Part shown: piece after piece, positions 4,542 to 29,672 of the stretch
Layout: each line of letters starts with the position of its first letter
Numbering within the stretch: position 1 is the stretch's first letter
IMG/VR virus record: IMGVR_UViG_3300048930_000354
Span: 1-29,672 of that record
DNA: 29,672 nt
Direction: 5' to 3' (one strand)
Source: a virus
The notes under the pieces: generated by a model
Told to the model about the DNA's origin: nothing
Seen by the model: only the letters and a program-made list of their open reading frames with translations
Database searches by the model: none
Translations under genes and position numbers: made by a program

Positions 4542-5141
4542 TTAGATCAACCAGTGGGCGTCGATCTGGTCTTTTGCGAGTTTGAAAAGAGGGAGATTGG
4601 TTACTTCATTCCAGTCTGTCAGAAGGGCACGATCTTTGATCTTGCGGAGAAGGCTACAGCAGTTTAGGGTATTCGATCCCACAAAACGACACAGACGATC
4701 ACGGTAGAGATACCAAGGCGGAACCATATCGTTACCAAGAATCAAGAAAGCAAGGGCTTCAAGAGCCACAGAGTCGAGCGCAACCGTAAGGAAGTGGATA
4801 AGAGGTTCTTGAGGCGCAGAGCCTTTGATAAGAAATCTCCGTTCCCATTGGTCTTGAAGTCGAGCCATCTCACCCGATTGTATCTGCAAGATCGTTTGCA
4901 TTTCCAACTTTGTGATGTCAGTAACCCAATCACACCACATACCATCGTGTGTATCTTTGTATTGTGGGGTAGTGAATCGGTTGATAGATTTCAAGTGCTT
5001 GGATGTCTTCTCACCAAGAAGCAGACCGAGTGCAAGGTTGATCGCACAATCGTATTCCGAGGTCTCAGGCTTGAAGAATTGCTGGACGGGTTCATTTGGG
5101 TTGTACTGTTTCCAGAGACTGAGGTTGTTTTGGAATTTCAT
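4542..5141 (-). CDS. Hypothetical protein, 199 aa
   Basis: Unrecognised, mostly alpha-helical soluble protein with many Trp, Leu and charged residues. The first 45 residues contain a helix-forming AINLALGLLLGEKTSKHL; residues about 115-140 form a second hydrophobic helical segment (LTVALDSVALEALAFLIL) that could be a buried helix rather than a TM span. It is the first gene after the promoter at 5196-5224. ATG follows GAAAGGGTAAAACC. Confidence 0.7.
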   Translation of the reverse strand: MKFQNNLSLWKQYNPNEPVQQFFKPETSEYDCAINLALGLLLGEKTSKHLKSINRFTTPQYKDTHDGMWCDWVTDITKLEMQTILQIQSGEMARLQDQWERRFLIKGSAPQEPLIHFLTVALDSVALEALAFLILGNDMVPPWYLYRDRLCRFVGSNTLNCCSLLRKIKDRALLTDWNEVTNLPLFKLAKDQIDAHWLI

Positions 5142-5165
5142 GGTTTTACCCTTTCTTGGTTAGTG

Positions 5166-5180
5166 TGATCTTCTTGATCA
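5166..5180. promoter_or_regulatory. Inverted repeat TGATC-N5-GATCA downstream of a promoter
   Basis: A perfect 5-bp dyad separated by TTCTT lies about 10-20 bases downstream of the start site expected from the promoter at 5196-5224. It could be an operator or a 5' leader hairpin. Both arms contain GATC, the expected target of the Dam-type enzyme in this window. Confidence 0.35.
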
Positions 5181-5195
5181 CCGAGGATGTTTTAT

Positions 5196-5224
5196 GTTCT
5201 ACACCAAGAAAGAGATCCTGTCAA
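5196..5224 (-). promoter_or_regulatory. Leftward promoter, TTGACA-N17-TAGAAC
   Basis: On the - strand TTGACA (5224-5219) and TAGAAC (5201-5196) are separated by 17 bases. GTGTAG and the following ATAA are shared with the promoter at 1784-1812. It lies in the 91-base gap before the 199-residue gene and probably drives genes down to 1837. Confidence 0.7.
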
Positions 5225-5232
5225 CAACTTTT

Positions 5233-5922
5233 TTACACAATAGGTTGGATAGAGATCTCGCCTCGGTGTTCACATAGGGCCGCTACGATAGCGCGGATGT
5301 AGTCTTTACCCTCTTCGTTGATACCGACAAGGGCAAAAGAGATAATCGGGTGGGTATGAAAGCAGAAGATCACTCGTAGGTTCTTCTCTTTTGGTTGTTT
5401 GAACTGGCGTAGGATGGTGTAGATACGTCTAGCGTGGGTGTTTTCGAGGAAGTACGACATATAGGCTTTACGTTGGGCGGCGAGATTGCAGAAGTGGTAG
5501 GCAGTAAAGTATTCGGGTTTGGAGTACACCATATCATCGGTTACGGTGATATAGCACTTAGATGTACCAAGAGCGTCTTTCATAGCCGCGTAGAATGACT
5601 CAAAGCCTCCTTTAAGGGGCGAATCTACCAGAATTGTGCGTGATGCGCGGTTGGCTTGGATATGAGCCATACGTTCGCGGATCTTGTTGTCGGTGTAGAT
5701 CGGGCTAACGATATTTCTTACATCCAAGAAGCCATCATAACCGACAAACTGATCGTCCATCTCAAAGGCAACAACTGTAGTGCGATCTGCCATATAGCAG
5801 GTATCATTGTGGAAGTGAACCTCGGAGACCTTACCAGAGATCGGTAAGGTTGGGAGTAGCTTGCGTACCTTTTCGATATTCGCAAGGGTCTTCTCTGTTG
5901 CGTATCGGTATTGCACCATCAT
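5233..5922 (-). CDS. Hypothetical protein, 229 aa
   Basis: Unrecognised soluble protein, apparently alpha/beta. Strand-like segments include VVAFEMDDQFVGYDGF, CYITVTDDMVYSKPEY and LRVIFCFHTHPIISFALVGI; the HTH is not accompanied by other catalytic signatures I can name. The first two codons are both ATG; the ATGA overlap with the preceding gene favours translational coupling at 5922. It closes the unit that starts at the promoter at 9392-9420. The gap after it (5142-5232) carries the next promoter. Confidence 0.7.
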   Translation of the reverse strand: MMVQYRYATEKTLANIEKVRKLLPTLPISGKVSEVHFHNDTCYMADRTTVVAFEMDDQFVGYDGFLDVRNIVSPIYTDNKIRERMAHIQANRASRTILVDSPLKGGFESFYAAMKDALGTSKCYITVTDDMVYSKPEYFTAYHFCNLAAQRKAYMSYFLENTHARRIYTILRQFKQPKEKNLRVIFCFHTHPIISFALVGINEEGKDYIRAIVAALCEHRGEISIQPIV

Positions 5923-6122
5923 GCCAACCCCTCCATTTCGATGATCTTGTAGGTTATATGTTGCATACCCTCAGTAAGATCCTTCTCCATCACCTCGTAC
6001 CCCTTGTAGGAGAGATGCCAGTAGGTGTGTGTATAGTAGTGTGTGCTGATCTTCGCGTGGTATTTGACTTCCACAGTATATGTTTGACCTTTGATCTCAA
6101 CGGGTATCGTTGTTGGTATCAT
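5919..6122 (-). CDS. Small hypothetical protein, 67 aa
   Basis: Beta-rich small protein with repeated Tyr and Thr (GQTYTVEVKYHAKIST, then THYYTHTYWHLSYKGYEVM). I chose ATG at 6122 because GAAGGAAAAAAG precedes it at good spacing; an in-frame ATG at 6158 with a GGAG nine bases upstream is possible and would lengthen the overlap with the previous gene. Ends in an ATGA overlap with the next gene. Function unknown. Confidence 0.6.
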   Translation of the reverse strand: MIPTTIPVEIKGQTYTVEVKYHAKISTHYYTHTYWHLSYKGYEVMEKDLTEGMQHITYKIIEMEGLA

Positions 6123-6312
6123 CTTTTTTCCTTCTTGTGCTTGTGGCAACCCAAACATCTACAAGGTCTCCGCCAAAACCCTCGCTTGTGGTGACAATTG
6201 GGGGTGCAGTGTAGAGTGGAGACCATGTTTTTACAATGGCTAGGGCTTGTGTGTAGGTGATTTTTCGAGAAATACGCAGGTCGTAGAGTGGAGGTGGGGG
6301 TGTAGATGTCAT
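6097..6312 (-). CDS. Small hypothetical protein, 71 aa
   Basis: Unrecognised. Starts MTSTPPPPLYDLRISRKIT and ends in a basic, Asp/Asn-rich tail (RRKKDDTNNDTR). No Shine-Dalgarno is visible before the ATG; instead the start overlaps the previous stop as ATGA, so translation is probably by coupling. Confidence 0.55.
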   Translation of the reverse strand: MTSTPPPPLYDLRISRKITYTQALAIVKTWSPLYTAPPIVTTSEGFGGDLVDVWVATSTRRKKDDTNNDTR

Positions 6313-6530
6313 GGTTTGGTTGTGTTTTGTGTCGGGTTACTTTGGCCCCAAGCGTAGGATACACCTTTTAGGGCAGTAGAGATTGCGATTGGCATATCAA
6401 TCTGGAAGTTCTTGCCGTACTTTTTGAAGTATTTTGGTGAGAAGATCATAGTGTCAGCCCAATCTGGACGCGGGATCTCTGAGAGTTTTGGTTTGTCTGC
6501 ATGGTCGCCTTCTTTTCCTTTGTAGATCAT
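6309..6530 (-). CDS. Small hypothetical protein, 73 aa
   Basis: Unrecognised, basic, with KLSEIPRPDWADTMIF in the N-terminal part and a Thr/Asn-rich end. AAGGATACACAATA precedes ATG, and the ATG shares one base with the stop of the upstream gene (TAATG). Confidence 0.6.
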   Translation of the reverse strand: MIYKGKEGDHADKPKLSEIPRPDWADTMIFSPKYFKKYGKNFQIDMPIAISTALKGVSYAWGQSNPTQNTTKP

Positions 6531-6814
6531 TATTGTGTATCCTTCTTGATAAGATGAAGACCTCGGATAGCTGCACGAGATCTCTGTACGATAGATGGTA
6601 GGTGTTCAAAAGCCTTTGGTGTGTATCCGATCTCTTCGGTATGTTGGATCAAAGCATCTGCAAACTCGCGTACAATTCTTCGTAGTTCTTCTGCTTCGGC
6701 TTCTGCGGTAGCCAGAGACTCGTTTAGTTTGACGTTCTCTCTTTGAAGATCTACCGCTTGTAGTAGAACAGTATTCTCAAACTCTTCAAAGTCGATTTCT
6801 GGTATAAATGTCAT
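6530..6814 (-). CDS. Coiled-coil hypothetical protein, 94 aa
   Basis: The first 60 residues form a clear amphipathic coiled coil with regular Leu/Ile/Val spacing and a Glu/Ala-rich middle (TAEAEAEELRRIVREFADAL). No membrane segment. GAAAGGCTAAACC precedes ATG. Probably an oligomeric partner protein; no family recognised. Confidence 0.65.
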   Translation of the reverse strand: MTFIPEIDFEEFENTVLLQAVDLQRENVKLNESLATAEAEAEELRRIVREFADALIQHTEEIGYTPKAFEHLPSIVQRSRAAIRGLHLIKKDTQ

Positions 6815-6817
6815 GGT

Positions 6818-7180
6818 TTAGCCTTTCTCGACAAATAGAATATAGACGGGCTTGTCTAATTCTCGCATACACTGAATCATGTGGGCTGTGCCTCTGCTTT
6901 TTCCATCCCATATCGCAATAAGGGCATCCGCAAAACGAGACATCTTGCGGTTACGGATAAAACCTGCGGCATGTTGTCCGTATTGTTGCCAGTAGGCGGG
7001 GAATTTGTGGATCTGCTCGTTTGTGAAGCCGTTTTGTTCGGCCCAAGCGATTGCACAGGTGTCGATACCTTTTGCCTTCCCTGATACTACGGCTGTGATA
7101 TTGAACTCGGATGCCTTTACAGCGGCATCTACAAGGCTAATATCATTTATCCAGCGTGATCCTGCAATAATCACTTTCAT
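6818..7180 (-). CDS. SLOG-family protein (YspA/DUF2493-like), 120 aa
   Basis: MKVIIAGSR at the N-terminus is the first Rossmann strand and Gly loop. VVSGKAKGIDTCAIAWAEQ (about residues 31-49) matches the SGxAxGxDxxAxxWA signature of YspA/DUF2493 SLOG proteins, followed by FPAYW, the RNRKM region, and IAIWDGKSRGTAHMI, which match the second half of the fold. The length is typical of phage members. SLOG domains bind or process nucleotide-related ligands; the substrate of this family is not established. Its ATG overlaps the dCMP deaminase stop (ATGA) and also has GAGGTGGAAG upstream, tying it to nucleotide metabolism by context. Confidence 0.8.
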   Translation of the reverse strand: MKVIIAGSRWINDISLVDAAVKASEFNITAVVSGKAKGIDTCAIAWAEQNGFTNEQIHKFPAYWQQYGQHAAGFIRNRKMSRFADALIAIWDGKSRGTAHMIQCMRELDKPVYILFVEKG

Positions 7181-7653
7181 CTTCCACCTCTAGGGTCTTT
7201 TGGCCCCTCTACAAAGGCAATTTCAACCCTGTGATCTTGTAAGTAAGATACACCGTTCTCACCAAAAAATCCACCATCCACAACGAAAACCTTGGTGATA
7301 CCCGCGTGGTGTATCAGCTTTGCACACATAAGGCAAGGCTCACCTGTCACGAATAGCCAAGTTCCGCGTGTAGGTGTACCAAAATCTGCGGCGTTACAGA
7401 TCACATTCATCTCTGCGTGGTGGCATCCGACCTCGACCTGAGTACCAGACGTTATCTTCTTGGTGTCTCGTAGGCAACAGTCACCACCGCAGAGTTCTCC
7501 GCCTTTACGGGGAGGGCCGTTGTAACCCTCACCTATGATCTGATTGCGTTCTGGATCGAGAAGTAATGCCCCAAACTTACGGCGAGAGCAAGAAGAGAGT
7601 TGAGATAGGGCAAGGCACTGTGCGATCCGCACGTCTATATGCTTTTGCTTCAT
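7177..7653 (-). CDS. Deoxycytidylate (dCMP) deaminase, 158 aa
   Basis: Zinc-dependent deaminase converting dCMP to dUMP, the precursor of dTMP, in the cytoplasm. The catalytic HAE (residues 79-81 in GCHHAEMN) and the PCLMC motif (106-110) provide the zinc ligands and proton-shuttling Glu. GYNGPPRKG (43-51) matches the conserved substrate-loop region of phage and ComEB-type enzymes. Length is that of the family. I chose ATG at 7653, which overlaps the previous stop as ATGA, rather than the in-frame start at 7710, whose extra residues only shadow the neighbouring gene. Together with the dNMP kinase at 11909-12514 it suggests phage control of pyrimidine dNTP supply; no thymidylate synthase is seen in the window. 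Confidence 0.92.
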   Translation of the reverse strand: MKQKHIDVRIAQCLALSQLSSCSRRKFGALLLDPERNQIIGEGYNGPPRKGGELCGGDCCLRDTKKITSGTQVEVGCHHAEMNVICNAADFGTPTRGTWLFVTGEPCLMCAKLIHHAGITKVFVVDGGFFGENGVSYLQDHRVEIAFVEGPKDPRGGR

Positions 7654-8075
7654 ACGTCCATGTCTTCTGTTGCGGGTTTGAACTCCGAACAATAGAACGG
7701 CTGTGGGCATTGTCCGATCTTAGTCTTGTCGTTGAAGCAGCGTAGTACACCCGTGAAGGCGTGAGAGTATTGACAGGTAGAGCAGTCCTTTCGAGTATTC
7801 ACAAAGGCTGCGTGATGGATGGGTATCACCTTGTCAGGCTTAACAAGATCAAAGTCTTCCGACTCCAAGATGAAGGAGAGTTCGTCAAGGATCTCGTCGT
7901 AGCAAGATCTCACGATTCTTGCACCTTCTGGGATGTTACTTGCCAAGATCTCTATGAATCTTGCGAATTGGATAGCATGTGTAGTGCAAACAAGCACTTT
8001 CCAACGCCTCTCTTCACCGCTGTAGTTTGTAGCACCTGCAAGCGTGATGGTCTTTTCAGAATGGAGACTTTGCAT
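7650..8075 (-). CDS. Hypothetical Cys-rich protein, 141 aa
   Basis: ATG at 8075 has AGGAGAAGAACGCC upstream; earlier in-frame codons lie over the previous gene and were not used. The N-terminal 75 residues look like an alpha/beta domain (ERRWKVLVCTTHAIQFARF). The C-terminal part has CSTCQYSHAF, a later CF, GQC and YCSEF, so five or six Cys that could bind zinc or an Fe-S cluster. I do not recognise the family. It lies between a MazG-like gene and the dCMP deaminase and overlaps both. Confidence 0.65.
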   Translation of the reverse strand: MQSLHSEKTITLAGATNYSGEERRWKVLVCTTHAIQFARFIEILASNIPEGARIVRSCYDEILDELSFILESEDFDLVKPDKVIPIHHAAFVNTRKDCSTCQYSHAFTGVLRCFNDKTKIGQCPQPFYCSEFKPATEDMDV

Positions 8076-8454
8076 TGGCGTTCTTCTCCTGATCTTTGGC
8101 TTTCTGCCAGTATTCCAGTTCCTCTTGCATGGTCTTGTATTCGTCAGAGAAGATGTGTGGCTTTCTGTGGCGGTACTTATGGAGGATACGGTTACCCAAG
8201 ATGAAATTGGCGTCGTATCCGAGGTCAATATAGTGCATGGTCAGACCAAGAGCCTGAGAGAGAACGTCATTCAACTCGGCAAAAAGTAGGTCAGGCTCGT
8301 TTGTGTCGAGCAATTCTTGGGCTTCTTTGGCAATAAAGATCCTTCTTGCTTCGGATGATTGGGCCTTTGACCACTCGGAGTTCTGGTTATCAAGAAACAT
8401 AACATCCACGGCATCGCAAATTGCGCGTTTTACCTTTTCTATTTCTCGGTTCAT
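8056..8454 (-). CDS. MazG/all-alpha NTP pyrophosphohydrolase-like protein (tentative), 132 aa
   Basis: All-alpha sequence whose centre, FIAKEAQELLD then LFAELNDVLSQALGL, resembles the ExxE...ExxD arrangement by which MazG-type enzymes coordinate Mg2+ to hydrolyse (d)NTPs to monophosphates. The first Glu of the usual EExxE is Lys here, so activity is uncertain and the assignment rests on pattern and gene context (deaminase, SLOG, kinase nearby). ATG at 8454 has AAGG at good spacing; a GTG two codons upstream overlaps the preceding stop (GTGA) and is an alternative start. Confidence 0.45.
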   Translation of the reverse strand: MNREIEKVKRAICDAVDVMFLDNQNSEWSKAQSSEARRIFIAKEAQELLDTNEPDLLFAELNDVLSQALGLTMHYIDLGYDANFILGNRILHKYRHRKPHIFSDEYKTMQEELEYWQKAKDQEKNANAKSPF

Positions 8455-10999: not shown

Positions 11000-11112
11000 C
11001 TTAGATACTCCGCAGGTATGACAGTTGGTAGGCTTTTATAGTCCTTGTAGAAACCGCAAACAAAGCGACGACCACGGGGAGTAAGACGATACCAGTACGA
11101 GATCTTCTTCAT
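10996..11112 (-). CDS. Small basic protein, 38 aa
   Basis: ATG at 11112 follows GGAGAAAAAGCA and overlaps the Dam stop (ATGA). The product MKKISYWYRLTPRGRRFV... is very basic and aromatic and ends PAEYLR with an ATGA overlap into the next small gene. Its N-terminus recalls short winged-helix fragments (LTPRGRRF), but it is too short to assign. Confidence 0.55.
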   Translation of the reverse strand: MKKISYWYRLTPRGRRFVCGFYKDYKSLPTVIPAEYLR

Positions 11113-11912
11113 TGCTTTTTCTCCTTTGTTTGTCCGTTTATGGCTTTTCGCAAAAGACCTTCGGCGTGTTCAATCGCTGTACGGTCGATCTTTCTATGTC
11201 CACGCTTTGCTGCTTCTACGCGGCAAGCGGATATATGGTCGTGGATCTCTTTCGTAGCGGTGTCTAGTTGTATGTTGTGGGCCAACATGACGCATCCGTA
11301 TGGTTGCCACAAGCCCACTACGATACGCGGATCAATCTCTCCGAAGATTGTGAGCATCTGACCCTGTAGTGGGCTGTCTTGCTCTTTCATTGTACGGCCG
11401 TCAATGAATTTGATACGCTTTGTGAGAAATACAGCCGCAGAACAAAGGTCGAGAGCCTTGCGACACCAGACGGTCTCTGTGGCCGTATTGGTGATCATGG
11501 TGAGTGTCTTTACATCACCTCGAACGATCTCTGTGTGGATCTTCTCCACTACGCGAGTCATTGTAGGTGTATCGTAGGGTGGATTGATCCAGACGTTACC
11601 AAACCAAGACTTCGAGAGACCATCTTGGTCTTTGGTGTAGAAATTCTCTGCACCTACAAGACCGTTAGCCTGTTCGGATGTCATAGGATCGAGATCGATA
11701 GTTCCGCCGTACATGGCCCGTACATTCTCTGTGATCCAAGCGGGAGTGTACCACTCCGTAAAGCCTGTGTTTTGCTTTACCTTCGCCTTACGCTTCTCTT
11801 TTGGGGTAAGCGGTTCTTCTTCTTTTAATGTAGGCACAAAAGACAGATCCATCTGGTTGACAGCCTCTTCGATCTCAATCAGAGCAATGGCTGTGTTTTT
11901 TCGATCTGTCAT
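11109..11912 (-). CDS. dam: Phage Dam-type DNA N6-adenine methyltransferase, 267 aa
   Basis: Transfers methyl from S-adenosylmethionine to adenine N6 in DNA. The phage Dam family pattern is clear: EWYTP (53-57), TIDLDPMTSEQAN (71-83), ENFYT (89-93) and WINPPYD (108-114), where NPPY is the catalytic motif IV. A Lys/Glu-rich N-terminal extension (about residues 25-48) precedes the domain, and the C-terminus is helical and basic. Start and stop are in ATGA overlaps with the kinase and the small basic gene; AAGGGA precedes the ATG. The known specificity of relatives is GATC, and GATC is visibly abundant in this window, so self-modification is likely (inference). Confidence 0.88.
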   Translation of the reverse strand: MTDRKNTAIALIEIEEAVNQMDLSFVPTLKEEEPLTPKEKRKAKVKQNTGFTEWYTPAWITENVRAMYGGTIDLDPMTSEQANGLVGAENFYTKDQDGLSKSWFGNVWINPPYDTPTMTRVVEKIHTEIVRGDVKTLTMITNTATETVWCRKALDLCSAAVFLTKRIKFIDGRTMKEQDSPLQGQMLTIFGEIDPRIVVGLWQPYGCVMLAHNIQLDTATKEIHDHISACRVEAAKRGHRKIDRTAIEHAEGLLRKAINGQTKEKKQ

Positions 11913-12514
11913 AGTGTTTCCCTTGTAACGAGAGGCTTGATGCGGTCACTTTCGAGAACAAAGCGGAGAGTTTGTTCCTTGTCCCAATTTGCATTAGGGA
12001 TAGCAAGGAAATTTGCGTGGTGTGCATATTTATCCCAGATCTCAAAGCGCCCCCGTTCGGATGGGTGGTTTGGATCTCTTTTTGTCTCTTTGCTACCTTC
12101 ACGTTCAATCCACAGTATCCTTGTGCGATACTGTAGGTGGTTCATAAAGAAGTCTGCTTCTGCAAGTGTACGACAATCGGAAACGATGAAGGTGTTATTT
12201 TGCATTTTCTGGCAGGACTGATGGGCAATACGACACCAGACATCTTTACCAAAGATAGGGTGAACAGCGTCGGTTCCGAGTTGTTGCAGGATCTCTCCCA
12301 CTGTCATGTTCGCGGCAGGGATAAACTTGTTCTTACCTTCATGGGTACTGCACCACTCAGGCGGAAAATCGAACATAACAGGGGCCATACCTTTTAGCGG
12401 TGCAGCGAAAGCGATTCTACGGCTATCTTCTATGTAATAGCACAAGAAGTCTGCAAGCGTATCTTTACCAGATCCCATTGCACCGCAGACCAGTATCATG
12501 TTCTTCTTTTTCAT
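11909..12514 (-). CDS. Deoxynucleoside monophosphate kinase (T4 gp1-like P-loop kinase), 201 aa
   Basis: Phosphorylates dNMPs to dNDPs. CGAMGSGKDTLADFL holds the Walker A loop (residues 11-19), APLKGMAP (38-45) and TVGEILQQLGTDAVHPIFGK (71-90) match the LQxxGTxxxRxxFGxDxW region of phage dNMP kinases, and FIVSDCRTLAEA (109-120) matches the Asp-x-Arg NEA motif. The expected Arg after GTD is His here (DAVHPIFG), a minor deviation. The start has only a weak Shine-Dalgarno (GGAT) five bases after the upstream stop. It works naturally with the dCMP deaminase in supplying dNTP precursors. Confidence 0.85.
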   Translation of the reverse strand: MKKKNMILVCGAMGSGKDTLADFLCYYIEDSRRIAFAAPLKGMAPVMFDFPPEWCSTHEGKNKFIPAANMTVGEILQQLGTDAVHPIFGKDVWCRIAHQSCQKMQNNTFIVSDCRTLAEADFFMNHLQYRTRILWIEREGSKETKRDPNHPSERGRFEIWDKYAHHANFLAIPNANWDKEQTLRFVLESDRIKPLVTRETL

Positions 12515-12519
12515 GTGCG

Positions 12520-12900
12520 TTATCCGAGGATCTTGAGTGTATTGCGACGGACAACGATCTGATCGTTGAAGGCGGTAAGTAGTTCTCGTGTCACCTTGAC
12601 AGCAGCGTGTGTGACAGGATCGGGGGTCTTCTCGAATCGCTTACAGTACATTTCTGCCATCTCAAGCCAATCAGCACAAAGATCGACGTGGATCAACTTC
12701 ATCTTGTACCGACCAGATGCGACCTTATGCAGTTCATCGGTGATTTGTTCGTACAGGGTGTCGAGTTGAAGTGTCCAGTTCTTTGCAATAACTTGTTTTT
12801 CGAGTTCTGCGGTCTCTTTGATGAAGAAGCGTGAGAGGGCATCCACGTCAGATGCTTTTGGGAGAAGTGCGCTCAGGTCATATTTCTTCATGGTTTTCAT
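12520..12900 (-). CDS. Hypothetical helical protein, 126 aa
   Basis: Unrecognised, almost entirely alpha-helical, without signal peptide or TM helix. Helical runs include DALSRFFIKETAELEKQVI and CADWLEMAEMYCKRFEK. AAGGAGATTGAG precedes the ATG at 12900. First gene of the unit headed by the promoter at 12946-12974, upstream of the dNMP kinase and Dam genes. Confidence 0.7.
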   Translation of the reverse strand: MKTMKKYDLSALLPKASDVDALSRFFIKETAELEKQVIAKNWTLQLDTLYEQITDELHKVASGRYKMKLIHVDLCADWLEMAEMYCKRFEKTPDPVTHAAVKVTRELLTAFNDQIVVRRNTLKILG

Positions 12901-12945
12901 CTCAATCTCCTTTGTGTCTTCAAGCCAACATCGGCTTATGTCTTA

Positions 12946-12974
12946 TGGTTACACTAAGAAGATAGAGGTGTCAA
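12946..12974 (-). promoter_or_regulatory. Leftward promoter, TTGACA-N17-TAACCA
   Basis: A perfect TTGACA (12974-12969) precedes GTGTAACCATAAG. With 17-base spacing the -10 is TAACCA, a weak match, but GTGTA-n-ATAA is shared with the promoters at 1784 and 5196. A short dyad, AAGCC-N6-GGCTT (12922-12937), lies just downstream of the predicted start. It is in the 74-base gap before the 126-residue gene. Confidence 0.55.
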
Positions 12975-13250
12975 CTACTTTTTGAAAAAAAGCATGACCA
13001 CGCCTACCACGATAGCCCCCACAAAGGAAGATCCGAGGGCCACAGGTAGCCAAATGATCTTGTCGCTCCACTTGTTCTCACCCTTGATCACAGCCAGATC
13101 CGTATCAAGGCGACGAACATCCACCTCGATCTTGTTGACTTGCCGTGTCAAATGCCGAACATCGCTATGGATCTGTTGGAGCATTGCGATTGTATAGGTC
13201 TGAGGATCGAGATCTCGGAAATTATCAAGCGGTGAATTCGTATCGCTCAC
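12975..13250 (-). CDS. XhlA-like coiled-coil, tail-anchored membrane protein, 91 aa
   Basis: Starts at GTG 13250, in a GTGA overlap with the previous gene and with GGGGGTGG upstream. Residues about 23-58 form a coiled coil (heptads through QQIHSDVRHLTRQVNKIE), followed by one C-terminal TM helix (65-89) and a KK end. This is the layout of XhlA-type haemolysin/holin-accessory proteins. Its place behind the endolysin, holin candidate and spanin-like genes supports a lysis role, but sequence identity to XhlA cannot be asserted. Confidence 0.5.
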   Translation of the reverse strand: MSDTNSPLDNFRDLDPQTYTIAMLQQIHSDVRHLTRQVNKIEVDVRRLDTDLAVIKGENKWSDKIIWLPVALGSSFVGAIVVGVVMLFFKK

Positions 13251-13585
13251 TTTACCACCCCCACAACGATCATACCGATAATACCTGCGGCTACAGCTAC
13301 ACCTAAAAGTACCCAAGGAAGAGGCGATCTTGCTTTTTGCAAATCCTGCTCAAGAGACTTTCGCTTTAAGATCTCCCTTGCCAGATCGTTGTCTCGTTTT
13401 TTCTTGCATGTGTCGAGATCTGTATTGAGGTTAGAAATGATCTTCTTGCGTTCTGCGGTCTTCTTACGCATAGCGGCGATCTCTTCTCTTGAGAAGCAGA
13501 TGTCACGAACATCTTTAGCGTACGCGATAGGCGACCACACAAGGAGAAGAGAGAGTGTAAGGCATACCCAAGCCTGTCTAATCAT
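13247..13585 (-). CDS. Secreted/tail-anchored coiled-coil protein, possible spanin component, 112 aa
   Basis: A classical Sec signal sequence (residues 1-23, ending SPIAYA before KD) is followed by a basic coiled coil (33-86) and a C-terminal TM helix (90-111). Cleavage at AYA would leave a periplasmic coiled coil held in the inner membrane by its C-terminus. This resembles a unimolecular spanin except that there is no lipobox Cys for outer-membrane attachment. GGGAGGTGTTGA precedes ATG; the start overlaps the end of the TM protein upstream by eight bases. Role inferred from position in the lysis cassette. Confidence 0.55.
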   Translation of the reverse strand: MIRQAWVCLTLSLLLVWSPIAYAKDVRDICFSREEIAAMRKKTAERKKIISNLNTDLDTCKKKRDNDLAREILKRKSLEQDLQKARSPLPWVLLGVAVAAGIIGMIVVGVVK

Positions 13586-15025: not shown

Positions 15026-15310
15026 ATGGCAAAGAGTGATCTTGTTCGTCGTGTGAAGGATCGGTACAGAGAAGATGTGTCATACCACGAAGCGGAAGAG
15101 ATGCTACACACGGTATTGGATGCGGTACGCGATGAAATGGTGGCGAGAGGTGAGGTGTTCTTACCACAGATCGGTAAGTTGCAGATCCAGAACTCGAAGC
15201 CAAGAGAGATCGAGGGTATTGATGGTCGTGTGGAGATTGTAGAGATGCGTAAGAAGGTGTACTTCAAACCATCTCAGAAGATCAAGAAGTATGTGAATGG
15301 TGGCAGATGA
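15026..15310 (+). CDS. HU/IHF-like DNA-binding protein, 94 aa
   Basis: The order and length match histone-like proteins: an N-terminal helical dimerisation part (KSDLVRRVKDRYREDVSY with following HTVLDAVRDEMVARGEV), then GEVFLPQIGKLQIQ (about residues 42-55) corresponding to the GxxFxxPGxG-type turn and strand, a basic arm region, and KVYFKPSQKIKKYVNG at the end, matching the FKPSKxLKxxVN terminus. The arm is shorter than in bacterial HU and lacks the usual RNPxTG, reading KPREIEGIDG instead. Possible roles are packaging or replication architecture near the adjacent repeat region. Ends in an ATGA overlap with the next gene. Confidence 0.75.
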   Translation: MAKSDLVRRVKDRYREDVSYHEAEEMLHTVLDAVRDEMVARGEVFLPQIGKLQIQNSKPREIEGIDGRVEIVEMRKKVYFKPSQKIKKYVNGGR

Positions 15311-16134
15311 AAGCAGAGCAATACTACTCAGAGAAGAGGCGTTCGTTTTTGGAGGGCGGTCGTGTGTTAATCTGGTTCTCTTGTGGTGTGACTTCGGCTG
15401 TTGCGGCTAAGATTGCGTCTGACAAGTACAAGGATACAAAGACAGTAGAGGTTCTGTATTGTGATACAGGCGGCGAGCATCCTTCCAACAGAATCTTTCT
15501 CAAGGACGTAGAGAAGTGGTTGGGTATCAAGATAAGAGTCTTGAAGAATAAAAGGTACAAAGATCACTTCGATCTATTCCAAAAGAAGAAGCACCTCAAC
15601 AGAGGCGGTATCGTGTTATGCACACAAGAACTCAAGAAGAGTCTAAGGCAAAAGTATGAAGACCCTGTAAGAGATATTCAGATTTTTGGATTCGATACGT
15701 CGGAAGTTTCACGCCTACAAAGGTTCCGAGACGCTAACGAAGAAGTCTATGTAGAGACTCCACTTATTGAAACTGGTCTCACAAAAAATGACTGCTTGGC
15801 TATAGTACAAAGCGTAGGGTTGAGATTACCAATAACCTACTTTCCTCAGAAGAGTGGCGCACCATATAAACACGCAAACTGCTTAGGGTGTGTAAGAGGA
15901 AGTGCTAAGTATTGGTCAAAGATTCGCATAGACTTCCCAAAAGTCTTTCACAAGATGGCAAAGATTGAGCAGGAAGTTGGGGACAAGATTGTAAAGTACA
16001 AAGGACAATGGACTGCGCTTTATGATCTACCTTTGGAAGTAGAAGACGACGATCCAGACTACAACTTTGAGTGTTCTATTCTGTGTGGAGACTTCTTATC
16101 TTCTATAGAAGGAGAAAACAAAGGTGGAGAATAA
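15307..16134 (+). CDS. PAPS-reductase-family PP-loop protein, 275 aa
   Basis: Adenine-nucleotide alpha-hydrolase of the phosphoadenosine phosphosulfate reductase / DndC-like group. VLIWFSCGVTSAVAAKI (residues 20-36) is the PP-loop, with Cys where SGGxTS usually has Gly. VEVLYCDTGGEHPSN (47-61) is the second conserved strand, and NCLGCVRG (about 191-198) is a CxxC that could bind iron-sulfur or disulfide. Phage members are widespread and of unclear role: sulfur activation, base or DNA modification, or restriction evasion. Located between the HU-like gene and the repeat region, directly upstream of the terminase. Confidence 0.8.
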   Translation: MKAEQYYSEKRRSFLEGGRVLIWFSCGVTSAVAAKIASDKYKDTKTVEVLYCDTGGEHPSNRIFLKDVEKWLGIKIRVLKNKRYKDHFDLFQKKKHLNRGGIVLCTQELKKSLRQKYEDPVRDIQIFGFDTSEVSRLQRFRDANEEVYVETPLIETGLTKNDCLAIVQSVGLRLPITYFPQKSGAPYKHANCLGCVRGSAKYWSKIRIDFPKVFHKMAKIEQEVGDKIVKYKGQWTALYDLPLEVEDDDPDYNFECSILCGDFLSSIEGENKGGE

Positions 16135-16207
16135 CAGGAACAATCTTACTGTTAGGATGATCAGGTTCAGTATAAGATGTGAAGCCGAGATTTAGAGGCT
16201 AAAACCT

Positions 16208-16349
16208 GATCCACGACTGAACACATTAGCAGTAGATCCATGTCTCCTTACTCTACCAAGGTCTTGAGGTGCGCCACACTCCCCTTAATGATCCTATAGA
16301 GAGGGTGGATCACGGAAAAACAGAATCTTGTAAGAAAATGGACTACTGA
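16208..16349 (+). repeat. Long repeat copy A (142 bases)
   Basis: Begins GATCCACGACTGAAC and ends GGACTACTGA. About nine in ten bases match copy B. An invariant 25-base block (16287-16311) contains CCTATAGAGAGGGTGGATC. CCACACTCCCC upstream of it can pair imperfectly with GAGAGGGTGG, giving a hairpin around ATGATCC. CAGTAG near 16230 can pair with CTACTG near its end. Confidence 0.85.
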
Positions 16350-16377
16350 ACTAACTAGCATCTGTGGGGTTGTGTTT

Positions 16378-16406
16378 TTGGTATGACAAAAATGTCTCAG
16401 TATAAC
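16378..16406 (+). promoter_or_regulatory. Possible promoter just before repeat copy B
   Basis: TTGGTA (16378-16383) and TATAAC (16401-16406) are separated by 17 bases. The start site would fall at about 16413, at the beginning of copy B. GACA-AAAA-TGTC forms a small dyad between the hexamers. TCAGTATAA also precedes copy A, but without a -35 match. This is weak evidence that copy B is transcribed as its own RNA. Confidence 0.3.
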
Positions 16407-16408
16407 CC

Positions 16409-16549
16409 GATCCACGACTGAACAGATTAGCAGGAGATCAAGATCTACTTACTCTACCAAGGTCTTGATGTGCGCCACCCTCCACTTAATGATCCTATAG
16501 AGAGGGTGGATCGCAAAAAACAAGATCCTGTAAGAAAATGGACTACTGA
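16409..16549 (+). repeat. Long repeat copy B (141 bases)
   Basis: Starts with the same 15 bases as copy A. Its perfect inverse lies at 16557-16571, so the 163-base interval 16409-16571 could fold into one closed stem-loop as RNA. Inside, CCACCCTC pairs perfectly with GAGGGTGG around the invariant block (16488-16512). Confidence 0.85.
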
Positions 16550-16556
16550 TGCTTTT

Positions 16557-16571
16557 GTTCAGTCGTGGATC
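16557..16571 (-). repeat. Inverted copy of the 15-base repeat end (closes copy B)
   Basis: GTTCAGTCGTGGATC is the exact reverse complement of the first 15 bases of copies A and B. Confidence 0.9.
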
Positions 16572-16612
16572 GCAGCGATAGGTGGTATAGGCTATGAGGC
16601 AAGATACGACGA

Positions 16613-16752
16613 GATCCACGACTGAATAGGTTATCAGTAGATTCATATCTCCTTACTCTACCAAGGTCATGCGATGCTCCACCATCCCTATAATGATCCT
16701 ATAGAGAGGGTGGATCGTGACAAAACAGAATCTTGTAGGAATATGGACTACA
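16613..16752 (+). repeat. Long repeat copy C (about 140 bases, most diverged)
   Basis: Starts GATCCACGACTGAAT and shares the invariant block (16692-16716) and TTACTCTACCAAGGTC with A and B, but has more substitutions. Its internal hairpin is the best of the three: CCACCATCCCTATA and TATAGAGAGGGTGG pair at 12 of 14 positions around ATGATCC. Inverse segments at 16755-16775 and 16802-16816 make 16613-16816 a long interrupted palindrome. Confidence 0.8.
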
Positions 16753-16754
16753 AA

Positions 16755-16775
16755 CCTCAAGACCTTGGTAGAGTA
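16755..16775 (-). repeat. Inverted copy of the internal repeat segment
   Basis: These 21 bases (starting CCTCAAGACCTTGG) are the exact reverse complement of the segment beginning TACTCTACC in copy A (16249-16269) and nearly so of the corresponding part of copy C, with which they could pair. Confidence 0.85.
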
Positions 16776-16801
16776 GGTCGAAACACTACCGCTGAGATTC
16801 T

Positions 16802-16816
16802 GTTCAGTCGTGGATC
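16802..16816 (-). repeat. Inverted copy of the 15-base repeat end (closes copy C)
   Basis: GTTCAGTCGTGGATC again, the reverse complement of the repeat start, 51 bases before the terminase ATG. Confidence 0.9.
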
Positions 16817-16824
16817 TATAAATA
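16817..16824 (+). promoter_or_regulatory. TATAAATA, possible late-type promoter element
   Basis: This octamer equals the T4 late promoter -10 sequence and immediately follows the last inverted repeat, 43 bases before the terminase start. There is no sigma70 -35 at the right distance. No gp55-like sigma factor is in the window, so the T4-type reading is only suggestive. Confidence 0.3.
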
Positions 16825-16867
16825 CGTTCAGTACACTACGCGCACCCCCAAAACGAAAGGACATACA

Positions 16868-18304
16868 ATGACTCAACTCCACAACATGATCTCCGAACAC
16901 GGAAGACCAAGAGACCCCACGGCAAAAGACTACATTCAGATCACTAAACAACTCCACGATCTGATTCGATACAAAGTCCTTGTCGAGAACAATGTAGAGG
17001 TTCTGGCTGAGTTCGTTCTTGGCTACAAACCCAAGCCCTTTCACCGTGAGTTTATGCGATGGCAAAACGGATGCAAAGAGGGTATGCTTTTGGCTTGGCG
17101 TGGTTCTGCAAAAACGACCTACTGCACTATCACACGTTGCATCTTCGAGATCATCAAAAACCCCAACATAAGAATCCTCTTGGCCGCAGCTTCTTCTGCC
17201 CAAGGCGAGAACTTCATCCGAGGTATCAAAAGTCACCTCGAATCTAACCCTAAACTCAGAGAGATCTTTGGTGACTACACCACAAATGCCCCCCTCTGGA
17301 CTACCTCAGCTTTCACCGTCAACAGAAGATCATCTCACGCCCCAGAACCGACACTTATGGCTGTAGGCGCAGGTACAGCACTGCCCTCTCGACACTACGA
17401 CCTGATCATCTGTGACGACCTTGTTATCTCTGACAATGCGGCTACAGAGGGCCAAAGAAAGAAGATCGTGGACTACTACTACTCTACCCTTCTCCCCACA
17501 CTTGATCCCAAGGAAGGGCGCATCTGGGTACTTGGTACGCGGTGGCATGATCAAGACATCTATGGTTGGCTTCAAAAAGAGGATTACAAGGACTCAACTT
17601 TCATTATGAGTGTCTTGGACGAAGATGATCGTTCGCGGTGGGAAGAACAGTTTCCCACGGACAAGATGCTACGCATCCGTAGGGCCAATATAAACGCCTT
17701 TGAGATGCAGTATATGTGTAGGTCTGGGATAGGCTCTGCGGGTGTCTTTACAGAGCCTATGTTTGAGTATGTAGATGTGGTTCCGAGTGAGGGTATGAAC
17801 TATTGGATGGGGATTGACTTTGCGGTGGGTCAGAAGGAACACAACGACTTCTTTTCTATCTCTGTTATCGCCACAAACAAGATCACAAAAGAGGTGTATC
17901 TGATCGAGGCTATCAAGAAGAAGATCCCATTCCCTGAGCAGATTGATACTATCCGATCTGTGCTACAAAGATACCCCCAGATCATACGAGTTGTCGCAGA
18001 GGCAAACGGTCAGCAAATGGGTCTTCTCCAACAGATCAAGAAGGACATTCCTGAGATCCCTTTGCTACCCAAGTTCAACCAACTTGACAAGACAGTCAAG
18101 GCGCAGCACGTTACCTTGCTTCTCAGTTCACGTCCATTGAAGGTTATGCGGGATCAGCACGAGTTCGTAAGGCTCTTGTTGGGTTTTCCAAACATCCACG
18201 GTTCAAAGGACGTATTCGACTCGTTTGAGATTGCCTATAGCGTATCCCTCAAGGGTGCGCGAAAAGAGAGATCTACTGAATCCGCCTTGGATACTTTGAT
18301 ATAG
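16868..18304 (+). CDS. terL: Terminase large subunit, 478 aa
   Basis: DNA-packaging ATPase and nuclease acting at the portal. Walker A is AWRGSAKTT (residues 76-84), Walker B is LIICDD (179-184) with the catalytic acidic residue following, and the coupling motif LGTRWHDQD is at 222-230. The RNase H-like nuclease has acidic residues in MGIDFAVG (Asp317), VVAEANG (Glu378) and KDVFDSFE (Asp448/Asp451). Length and motif order are those of a complete TerL. AAAGGACATACA precedes the ATG. No small terminase subunit is recognisable upstream, where the repeat region lies instead. Confidence 0.95.
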   Translation: MTQLHNMISEHGRPRDPTAKDYIQITKQLHDLIRYKVLVENNVEVLAEFVLGYKPKPFHREFMRWQNGCKEGMLLAWRGSAKTTYCTITRCIFEIIKNPNIRILLAAASSAQGENFIRGIKSHLESNPKLREIFGDYTTNAPLWTTSAFTVNRRSSHAPEPTLMAVGAGTALPSRHYDLIICDDLVISDNAATEGQRKKIVDYYYSTLLPTLDPKEGRIWVLGTRWHDQDIYGWLQKEDYKDSTFIMSVLDEDDRSRWEEQFPTDKMLRIRRANINAFEMQYMCRSGIGSAGVFTEPMFEYVDVVPSEGMNYWMGIDFAVGQKEHNDFFSISVIATNKITKEVYLIEAIKKKIPFPEQIDTIRSVLQRYPQIIRVVAEANGQQMGLLQQIKKDIPEIPLLPKFNQLDKTVKAQHVTLLLSSRPLKVMRDQHEFVRLLLGFPNIHGSKDVFDSFEIAYSVSLKGARKERSTESALDTLI

Positions 18305-21585: not shown

Positions 21586-23111
21586 CACAACCTATTGAAC
21601 TGAAAGACGCGCCTATCCTATCTGATGGATCTCCTGCACCTGTTGGGGCCGAGGCTGAATTGCAAAACTTGGATGTTGAGGAACTTTCTCTTGTTGGAAG
21701 ACCTGCCATCAAGCGCAAATTCATCATCTTCAAAGAGGATGGTACAACAGAGTTAGAAGAGACTGAGGTATCCGTAGATCGCCTTTCTTTGGAAGAGGAA
21801 ACGGACGCTCTTTACCTCAAATACTCTGACGGTGTTGTCGTTGAGATTGGATACCAAGACTATATCCAACTACTTGATCAAGCCATCGAAGACAACGAAG
21901 AGATTGTTGACCTCGCTATCTCTTTGGCGGATAGCCTTGAGAACTTTAATGTAGAGTACGATGGGAACCAAGGCTGTGTAACCAAGTCCGAGTTGATCGG
22001 ACACGCTAAATACAACCTTACTCTTGCCGCTGATGGTGAAGAGGTGAGTATGGAGTCGTACACACCAACAGCCTCTATGAAGAAAGCGGCCCAACGCGGT
22101 TTGGATTGGCGTAGAGATTTTGGACGTGGTGGGACAGCCGTAGGCATCGCTAGGGCTAGGGATATTGTCAACGGTAAAGACCTATCAGAATCTACCGTCA
22201 AGCGTATGTACTCGTTCTTTGCACGACATGAAGTGGACAAGCAAGCCCAAGGCTTTAATGCAGGTGAAGAGGGTTTTCCTAGCAATGGTCGTATTGCATG
22301 GGAATTGTGGTCTGGTGATTCAGGTTACGCTTGGAGTAAGAGGATCGCCGCTCGTCTGCGTAAGTCTGAAAAAGAGATCACACCTGAGCAAAAGTCCAAC
22401 GTCTATAGCGCATATATGGCTTTAATGCAAGCCGCAGATGCGTCTGACGAGGTATATGAAAGCGTGGCTATCAAAAAGGGTTCCGTACTCTCAGAAACAC
22501 TCAAACGTCTAATCGACAAGAAGGCTAAGAGTCGCGCTGATCGCGGTGAGATTGTCCGTCAAATGGCTGAGAAGGCGGGGATCTCTGTTCAAGCCGTTTA
22601 TGATATTATGAAACAGAAGATCGACTGCCCACCTCTCAAACGTCTGGCGGCTTTTGCTTCTGTTCTTGGTGTTGATGAATCTATCCTTAGATCCGCATCC
22701 CGAAGGGATGGTTGCAAACTTGACAAATCGGAGAATACTGAAATGAAAGACAAGATCCTTTTCGACAAAGAAAAGCAAGCCATCCTAAAAGAGATTGCCC
22801 TTGAGGATGGTACGACCAAAACAGAAGAAGTGGAAGCCTCCCCCGAACTGTTGACCCTTCTCAAAGAAGCGTCCCAACCGAAAGAGCAAGCACCTGTGGC
22901 TCCTGTTCAACAACAGGAAGCACCCGCCCCTCAAAAAACCGATCCGCTTCTCGAAGAACTCCGTAAGCAGATCCAAGACTCCACCAAGCATATCAGCGAC
23001 TTGCAAGCCCAAGTCAAGAAGTTGGAGTCTGCGGCTCCTGCATCCAATGGCAAAGAGCCTGAGCAAGCACCTGTGCAAAAAAGCAAAAGCCTTTGGGATA
23101 ACGTACTCTAA
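21582..23111 (+). CDS. Multidomain scaffold-like head protein with embedded helix-turn-helix, 509 aa, GTG start
   Basis: Starts at GTG after GGGAGGTGATAA. Four parts are visible. Residues 30-55 (VEELSLVGRPAIKRKFIIF) match the N-terminal SLVxxPAxxxxF element usual in XkdF proteins. Residues about 165-262 (KKAAQRGLDWRRDFGRGGT to LWSGDSGYAWSKR) match an uncharacterised domain common in phage head proteases. Residues about 320-372 (RGEIVRQMAEKAGISVQAVY through VLGVDESIL) form a Cro/C1-type HTH. Residues 395-509 contain a Pro/Gln/Ala-rich linker and coiled coil typical of scaffolds. Probably guides capsid assembly; the HTH role is unknown. Confidence 0.65.
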   Translation: MTQPIELKDAPILSDGSPAPVGAEAELQNLDVEELSLVGRPAIKRKFIIFKEDGTTELEETEVSVDRLSLEEETDALYLKYSDGVVVEIGYQDYIQLLDQAIEDNEEIVDLAISLADSLENFNVEYDGNQGCVTKSELIGHAKYNLTLAADGEEVSMESYTPTASMKKAAQRGLDWRRDFGRGGTAVGIARARDIVNGKDLSESTVKRMYSFFARHEVDKQAQGFNAGEEGFPSNGRIAWELWSGDSGYAWSKRIAARLRKSEKEITPEQKSNVYSAYMALMQAADASDEVYESVAIKKGSVLSETLKRLIDKKAKSRADRGEIVRQMAEKAGISVQAVYDIMKQKIDCPPLKRLAAFASVLGVDESILRSASRRDGCKLDKSENTEMKDKILFDKEKQAILKEIALEDGTTKTEEVEASPELLTLLKEASQPKEQAPVAPVQQQEAPAPQKTDPLLEELRKQIQDSTKHISDLQAQVKKLESAAPASNGKEPEQAPVQKSKSLWDNVL

Positions 23112-28367: not shown

Positions 28368-29599
28368 CACAGCGACTTGTTCACGAGTTTCTTTTCACAG
28401 AAGCACAAAGGTCTGGCTTGGTCTTTAGCGATGCAACAAAGATCCGACTCAATAGCCTTACCAACCAGATCGAGTTGAAGCCTACAGGAAAGGAAGCCCG
28501 TACAGGTCGAAACCTCTACCCAACGGAGGCAAACCTGTATGTCAAGACTGCGCCCTTCACACCTCGATCTGTCAAAAAGTGGTTTGGTTTTAGTGCTGTA
28601 CCTCGCCCTACGCTACAGCCAGATCAAACGTCTGTTGGTTATCGTCTCAATAATGGCTCCAGTGACTACTATTGGGATGGTGCAGCTTGGGTGGTGGCAG
28701 GATCTAGCAATTGGAATACTGAGCAAGTTGTGGTTGCCAACATTGATACTTTTCCTGCGACGAGCAAACAAATTGCCGTTGTGGTGAACCTCAAAACAGA
28801 CGATCAGTACGTCACACCCGCGATCTCTGCAATAGATCTTGGTTTCGAGGCTGAGATTGACTATATCCGATCTGTTCTAAGCGCCCTTATTGAATCTTTG
28901 AGAGATAACCTACGTTATGATCTACGTCTTGCTGTGGCGGGGAATGGGACGACGACTGTAACGCTTCCAGCGTATGATACAGCTTACGATATTGTTGGTG
29001 TTGATGCTGTCTATAACATGACAGATGATGCGGGGATGCACACTAACATCGCTTCTTCTTTCAACCCCGCAACAAGGGTACTGACACTCACAACAAGCCC
29101 AAGTAGTGCCAAGACCTTGCTTGTACGTCTAATCGGTCGCCCATCTGTGCAGTTGAGTAATCCAAGCCAAGACTGGCGCGAGGTGATGGCTTTCCCCTCT
29201 ATAACCATTGACAACCTGACCACTGTTGGGGCGCAAGTGTATGGTGAGCAGTTCGTCAAGAATATCGCAACAGGTACGGCGTCATATCGTTATATGCCAA
29301 TACGCCTACATATTCGTATGGATCTCTTGGCCGAGGCTGAGTCAAATGATACTGAGTTACATCTTTGGGAGGGTCTTTGGGCCTTCTTTCGACAAACGCC
29401 GCTCTTGCATTGGAAGGACTTGGATAAGCGAATCTTACTGAGGTTGGTAACGGATGGAGCCTATAATCAATCCTCTAACCTCAGAGATTCGTATAGGACA
29501 ACGATGACTTGCATCTTGGAGAATATCTATCTATGGCTTGACGCCGAACAATCCAAGCCTCTCGTGTTGACTGTGAATACGACGTTGGATAGGAGATAA
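28364..29599 (+). CDS. Large virion structural protein, probable neck/tail terminator fusion, 411 aa
   Basis: Starts in an ATGA overlap with the tail-completion gene. Residues 1-150 form a beta-rich, Thr/Ser-containing domain (SVGYRLNNGSSDYYWDGAAW, KQIAVVVNLKTDDQYV), residues 155-275 a second beta domain joined by the helix IDYIRSVLSALIESLRDNL, and residues about 280-411 look like a tail-terminator-type domain (RYMPIRLHIRMDLLAEAESN, then LHLWEGLWAFFRQTPLL). Gene order before the sheath favours a tail-terminator or neck role for the C-terminal part. The domain split is inference. Confidence 0.5.
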   Translation: MTQRLVHEFLFTEAQRSGLVFSDATKIRLNSLTNQIELKPTGKEARTGRNLYPTEANLYVKTAPFTPRSVKKWFGFSAVPRPTLQPDQTSVGYRLNNGSSDYYWDGAAWVVAGSSNWNTEQVVVANIDTFPATSKQIAVVVNLKTDDQYVTPAISAIDLGFEAEIDYIRSVLSALIESLRDNLRYDLRLAVAGNGTTTVTLPAYDTAYDIVGVDAVYNMTDDAGMHTNIASSFNPATRVLTLTTSPSSAKTLLVRLIGRPSVQLSNPSQDWREVMAFPSITIDNLTTVGAQVYGEQFVKNIATGTASYRYMPIRLHIRMDLLAEAESNDTELHLWEGLWAFFRQTPLLHWKDLDKRILLRLVTDGAYNQSSNLRDSYRTTMTCILENIYLWLDAEQSKPLVLTVNTTLDRR

Positions 29600-29601
29600 G
29601 A

Positions 29602-29672
29602 ATGTCCACACTATATTTTGGGCCTGTCAACGATGCGGGTGTAACCGTCCGTGAGAAGGCTGCACAACCTAC
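29602..29672 (+). CDS. Tail protein, possibly sheath, truncated by window edge
   Basis: ATG at 29602 follows AGGAGATAAGA. Only 23 complete codons are present: MSTLYFGPVNDAGVTVREKA and a few more. AGVTVREK resembles the GVYxxE start of contractile tail sheath proteins, and the position after connector and tail-completion genes fits, but the fragment is too short to be sure. Confidence 0.45.
   Translation, partial: MSTLYFGPVNDAGVTVREKAAQP

Follow-up and report, generated by a model that had tools for sequence, protein, structure and literature searches.

A repeated non-coding element before the terminase gene

What is the repeated DNA that lies directly before the terminase large subunit (TerL) gene of this virus, and what does it do? 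The window, which here means the whole stretch of 29,672 nt that was analyzed (IMG/VR record IMGVR_UViG_3300048930_000354), contains a 733-bp non-coding locus between a PAPS-reductase-like accessory (moron) gene and TerL (Table 1). Three element copies of 139 nt (A, B, and C) were found in this locus, with start-to-start distances of 201 and 204 nt, and ungapped identities to copy A were 79% for B and 86% for C. This agrees with the first-pass annotation, which had described three copies of about 140 nt with a period of about 200 nt.

Next, we compared the inverted repeats of the locus. As shown in Table 1, the common start GATCCACGACTGAA recurs inverted after both B and C, and the inverse of TACTCTACCAAGGTC lies in the tail of C, indicating that B and C are closed palindromic units. 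The closing repeats were exact, as had been claimed. The first 16 nt of copy A are identical (100%) to the inverted 16556-16571, and 16613-16626 of copy C (14 nt) match 16558-16571 inverted; copy C is also closed by a 60-nt inverted pair of 73% identity (16612-16671 and 16758-16817). The inverse TTACTCTACCAAGGTC in the C tail is an addition to the earlier description, and a related tail, GACCTTGGTAGAGTAAGGTGAAACAG, follows copy D, which lies at another locus (see below). The right-end inverse of M2 was present only on B and C and absent from A, D, E, and F; thus, terminal inverted repeats on every copy, as in a MITE or insertion sequence, were not seen. The joined genome has 24 non-coding gaps that are 140 bp or longer; inverted pairs of at least 12 bp occurred in exactly the four that bear the element (53, 34, 7, and 1 pairs) and in none of the other 20. 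The repeat and palindrome structure is, therefore, far beyond chance.

Table 1. Positions of the element copies, their blocks, and associated features. Positions are those of the window unless the partner contig (IMGVR_UViG_3300048930_000318) is named.
Feature	Position	Strand	Basis or remark
PAPS-reductase-like accessory (moron) gene, upstream of locus	15307..16134	+	phrog_424, E 5e-47
Whole non-coding element locus, 733 bp	16135..16867	.	between PAPS-reductase-like gene and TerL
Element copy A	16208..16349	+	137.9 bits, sequence-only model
Element copy B	16409..16548	+	132 bits, sequence-only model
Element copy C	16613..16753	+	131 bits, sequence-only model
Block M2, GATCCACGACTGAA, 14 nt	16208..16221 (A), 16409-16422 (B), 16613-16626 (C)	+	invariant in six full copies
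Block M1, TACTCTACCAAGGTC, 15 nt	16249..16263 (A), 16450-16464 (B), 16654-16668 (C)	+	invariant in six full copies
Block M3, TAATGATCCTATAGAGAGGGTGGATC, 26 nt	16286..16311 (A), 16487-16512 (B), 16691-16716 (C)	+	invariant in six full copies
Inverse of M2 closing copy B	16556..16572	-	17 nt, 100%, paired with 16408-16424
Inverse of M1 in copy C tail, followed shortly by GAAAC	16758..16776	-	inverse copy of TTACTCTACCAAGGTC
Inverse of M2 closing copy C	16802..16816	-	inverted-repeat comparison
TerL gene, downstream of locus	16868..18304	+	phrog_38, E 7e-70
127-bp overlap with end of partner contig, reversed	29546..29672	.	exact match
Element copy D	partner 4168-4028	-	sequence-only model
Element copy E	partner 25068-24927	-	sequence-only model
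Element copy F	partner 54488-54347	-	sequence-only model
Promoter cassette copies	window 5138-5229 (-); partner 22868-22958; partner about 41979-42075		

The element is dispersed over four loci of one genome

An exact scan of IMG/VR with GATCCTATAGAGAGGGTGGATC matched a single contig, IMGVR_UViG_3300048930_000318 (61,621 bp), at three separate places. Its end, reversed, overlaps the end of the window, as fragments that derive from the same assembly graph should do. In the relative G006 (80,032 bp), homologues of the structural genes of the window are followed, from the tail sheath on, by homologues of the partner contig in the same order, so the gene order runs across the join, indicating that the join is sound. 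The joined sequence of 91,166 bp, both outer ends of which are unassembled, is the genome of a ~91-kb myophage, a bacterial virus.

The sequence-only model found six full copies (A to F), one three-quarter copy, and several fragments in these 91 kb, all at four intergenic loci. The element is, therefore, dispersed rather than triplicated locally, and the first-pass annotation is extended by copies at three further loci. In the window orientation, the locus centers lie at 16.5, 36.7, 66.4, and 87.1 kb, with gaps of 20.2, 29.6, and 20.7 kb, plus 20.6 kb if the ends join. Such a minimum gap has a post hoc chance probability of 0.0014 for a circular and 0.012 for a linear genome. In this order, the first locus precedes TerL; the second separates a P2 gpU-like tail gene from its neighbor, also a tail gene, mid-way in the tail operon; the third occupies the gap between a helicase and a clamp-like gene; and the fourth precedes a 232-aa gene with a possible HTH. 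All six full copies share one orientation and point to the next gene at all four loci, an arrangement that would also be expected of a leader RNA or a promoter. The two multi-copy loci are situated at or near the two divergent transcription hubs, E at one and A-C within 2 kb of the other. These results are based on one genome with six paralogues and on our own gene calls, part of the 107 predicted genes having been scanned against families.

Invariant blocks within recombining copies

Alignment of A-F gave a mean column identity of 91%. Varying columns were distributed unevenly, with none among the 55 of M2, M1, and M3 together and 37 among the other 84. For the three longest runs without variation (26, 15, and 14 nt), the joint P against random placement was 2.5e-4, the blocks having been defined on the same six paralogues as were used for this statistic. 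The 14-base common start noted previously corresponds to M2 and is invariant in all six full copies. The 25-base block noted previously is likewise invariant, although its length became 26 nt (M3) once the copies from the other loci were added. M2 occurs 8 times in the genome and the M1 core CTCTACCAAGGTC 11 times, each on both strands and exclusively inside element loci; both are also found singly and inverted near full copies, M1 most densely at locus E. The four-gamete test failed for 76 of 120 informative site pairs, indicating that the copies have exchanged sequence by recombination. The AT-richest 60 and 120 bp of the whole genome adjoin copy D, where AT over 60 bp reached 0.77, compared with 0.68 for E, 0.67 for F, and 0.63 for A-C, the latter three being within the range of other gaps.

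Tests for coding and for structured RNA

The statement that no protein is encoded was confirmed: variable columns were spread evenly over codon positions (7/11/10), and the reading frames differed between copies. A minus-strand protein (...HPLYRII...KTLVE-stop in several copies, e.g., 16248-16415) was considered and rejected, since its frames differed, third-position bias was absent, and synonymous sites were frozen. Short identical spaced repeats or tRNAs were not found at the elements, which are, as had been stated, unlike CRISPR arrays, tRNA clusters, and iterons. ARAGORN and Rfam were both negative for a tRNA or D-arm-like RNA, and the elements matched none of the Rfam covariance models.

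Folding had been proposed earlier as a check, and it was borne out for the larger units, with z-scores against shuffles of about −7 for B, about −9 for C, and −8 to −12 for A-C together, but not clearly for A (−0.6 to −2.5). When the six units were folded singly, the lower energy always fell on the strand antisense to the next gene, a difference that was clear for A, E, and F. Covariation was analyzed on six close paralogues, which give little power, and one compensated pair was observed, a value reached in 235 of 500 shuffles. The 3′ arm of the apical hairpin lies within the invariant M3, whereas the opposite 5′ arm varies. One arm is thus frozen while its partner varies, indicating that sequence is kept rather than pairing.

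Occurrence in relatives and databases

Element patterns were searched in 2.9 million viral contigs, where only the partner contig was found, in GTDB genomes and plasmids, where there was no match, and in INPHARED phages, where only a 23-nt match at chance level appeared. TerL and helicase searches retrieved no related phages, and a capsid-protein alignment retrieved 59 related contigs. G006 was the nearest relative found, with identities of 50% for TerL and 53% for MCP and largely the same gene order. The first-pass annotation had held that absence of the repeats from close relatives with this gene order, together with a lack of transcripts, of DNA ends, and of conserved pairing, would speak for passive expansion. 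G006 indeed has no element, which bears this out in part, but its proteins are only ~50% identical, a distance at which non-coding sites are not expected to survive. The helicase, the clamp-like gene, and the element were all undetected in nine relatives (G006 and eight others), although matches to the DNA polymerase, primase-helicase, recombinase, and SbcCD-like genes were present in G006. These comparisons suggest that this lineage has gained both the element and the helicase/clamp pair, but general divergence could also explain the absence.

The distant relative G002 contains an unrelated non-coding tandem array of 130/73-nt units with hairpins (L032, 1415-1870), ~600 bp before TerL, and a 92% copy of it after a tail-fibre-like gene (G002, 52002-52424). 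Its sister contig G003 (L031) is without that array.

The element as a candidate protein-binding site and origin

The repeats are most likely a lineage-specific, recombining, modular near-palindromic cis-acting DNA element that serves as recognition sites for a phage protein. The strict blocks, the modules on either strand, the recombining copies, and the site beside an origin-binding-type helicase gene all fit protein-bound DNA. M1, M2, and M3 would then be the binding sites, and, more tentatively, the protein may be the helicase/initiator of Herpes_ori_bp type that is encoded next to locus E, which is rich in modules. Besides a full copy, this locus contains a partial inverse copy and several loose M1 modules, and it is flanked by divergently transcribed genes for the helicase and the clamp-like protein. 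The helicase (1236 aa) matched phrog_3712 (E 4e-13) and PF02399 (Herpes_ori_bp; 35.4 bits, cut-off 20), with the best stretch limited to residues 475-575, and is distant from known origin binders, its best phage matches being 24-27% over a part. The clamp-like protein (415 aa) showed no Pfam or PHROG match and gave a poor structure model, so the label "clamp" rests on reading the sequence. Promoter-like sequences at locus E, one of them found by a consensus scan, adjoin both flanking genes and point away from the modules. In the joined genome (genes 61-79), the polymerase/helicase and SSB/recombinase blocks occupy opposite strands, unlike in G006, where they share a strand; the divergent boundary at which locus E is situated is a possible inversion breakpoint.

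An origin had been among the guesses of the first-pass annotation, and it is now the leading specific function: we tentatively consider the element a candidate initiator-binding site or replication origin, by analogy with known systems. SPP1 has two similar origins, of which one lies within the initiator gene and the other close to moron genes in the late region; these origins, oriL and oriR, bind gp38 and combine direct repeats with an AT-rich unwinding region (PMC6316719). The loci described here might act similarly, one by the initiator-type gene (locus E) and the others (A-C, D, and F) elsewhere, including the late region, where moron genes are again adjacent. In contrast to SPP1, the units are palindromic, four loci are involved, the binding sites are candidates, and a strong AT-rich region adjoins copies only at D. 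Herpes simplex has several redundant origins (oriS/oriL) with the origin-binding protein OBP (UL9), and oriS is palindromic (PMC12543377). The likeness lies in the several palindromic sites and in a phage helicase of the family for which OBP is the namesake; however, the similarity covers part of the profile, the virus class is another, and the comparison concerns the arrangement of the sites and the helicase. The plasmid-prophage N15 carries dispersed partition sites with short palindromes and a RepA-like helicase. Its scattered inverted-repeat sites and helicase recall the present phage, in which, unlike N15, a ParA/SopB partition pair was not recognized, only a ParB_N-methylase fusion. A more elaborate version, a multi-locus modular palindromic origin system in which four sites ~20-30 kb apart are served by an origin-binding-type helicase like those of herpes and N15 (RepA) and the terminase-locus site might link replication to packaging, seems unlikely. 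Mapping origins from base skew was abandoned; skew and gene strand are confounded, so skew provides no independent support for an origin. To our knowledge, few origins have been mapped among phages that carry a herpes-like origin-binding helicase, and four precise candidate sites with defined invariant blocks make those of such phages directly testable.

Alternatively, the element may be a dispensable mosaic palindrome that is mobile or spreads passively, its hairpin modules being copied into intergenic sites and shuffled by phage recombination. The REP/BIME elements of bacteria are extragenic mosaics whose palindromic modules alternate in orientation (PMC2817692), and the element is likewise a mosaic of palindromic modules in intergenic DNA. 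It differs in having six full copies of 140-200 nt with three strictly invariant blocks, in a phage genome in which a RAYT was not recognized among the scanned genes. We regard this explanation as somewhat unlikely, ranking it close behind the origin because copy F looks like an insertion (it sits in a 316-bp gap where the G006 genes overlap at ATGA) and because an unrelated hairpin-containing array occurs twice in G002 and is absent from its sister. The shared modules and the four-gamete failures also fit. However, the lack of any change in three blocks, next to arms that vary freely, implies either selection or a dedicated enzyme, neither a transposase nor a RAYT was recognized among the scanned part of the 107 predicted genes, all full copies share one orientation, and target duplications were not seen by eye. 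If it did apply, a phage genome would contain a BIME-like element, a case that a limited literature search did not find described.

The remaining explanations are less probable. Control of late units through a promoter, enhancer, or operator, together with a phage sigma factor, would account for copies that point to the next gene; a sigma factor is among the phage proteins (phrog_1740, E 1e-10), other gaps are scarce in the late block, and four of the seven CAGTATA sites in the genome are in element gaps. We nevertheless consider such control improbable, since 140 nt with palindromes far exceeds a promoter, the promoter-like sequences of locus E lie outside the modules, by the flanking genes, and a search upstream of each copy for a promoter yielded only the weak motif GRCAAAAA, without a promoter box. 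A 5′ leader, antitermination RNA, or small RNA family is at least as improbable: the units fold better than shuffles, the orientation is consistent, and M1 in C and D can pair with a downstream inverse M1 in a switch-like manner, but covariation and Rfam gave no support, the invariance follows sequence blocks and not pairing, and lower energy on the antisense strand misfits a leader RNA of the next gene. The earlier suggestion of tandem structured RNAs is accordingly weakened. So is that of a terminase-tied packaging site (pac or cos), which is now very unlikely, since further copies of the same element lie within the tail operon and among replication genes. For it speak the position of A-C next to TerL, the helical protein with a possible HTH after copy D, possibly a small terminase, and the 3-6 GATC per element together with a Dam-family methylase. 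The pac site of phage P1 has a GATC cluster and Dam methylation features. A P1-like pac was rejected here, however, because GATC is common genome-wide (11.4 per kb) and its density in the element is unexceptional. The structure model of the 232-aa HTH-type protein was too poor to use.

Other features of the genome

GATC occurs at 1043 sites in the genome, compared with 355 expected from base composition, and four DNA methylase genes were found (window 11109-11912; partner 31773-32924, 28950-29714, and 12121-13548): one of the Dam family, two N6/N4, and one ParB_N-N6/N4 fusion. The only two TATAAATA octamers of the genome, which resemble T4 late promoters, lie in element gaps (window 16817-16824, right after C, and partner 4190), and their total count is at chance level. 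A ~92-bp promoter cassette, consisting of TTGACA...GTGTAGAACATAAA, a GTGATC...GATCAC stem-loop, and an RBS, is present in three copies of 91-96% identity before early-type genes, recalling the promoter-stem-loop cassettes of T4-like phages. The class II ribonucleotide reductase gene (partner 4842-8123, minus strand) has an apparent intein-like insert, with GFKVHNC before NEV, as judged by eye. Two paralogous genes (partner 42072-42719 and 22221-22871) contain internal 18-nt tandem repeats that correspond to hexapeptide-type repeats. Finally, a 48-bp tandem repeat occupies positions 1-117 of the window, at the left contig end, probably the point at which assembly stopped.
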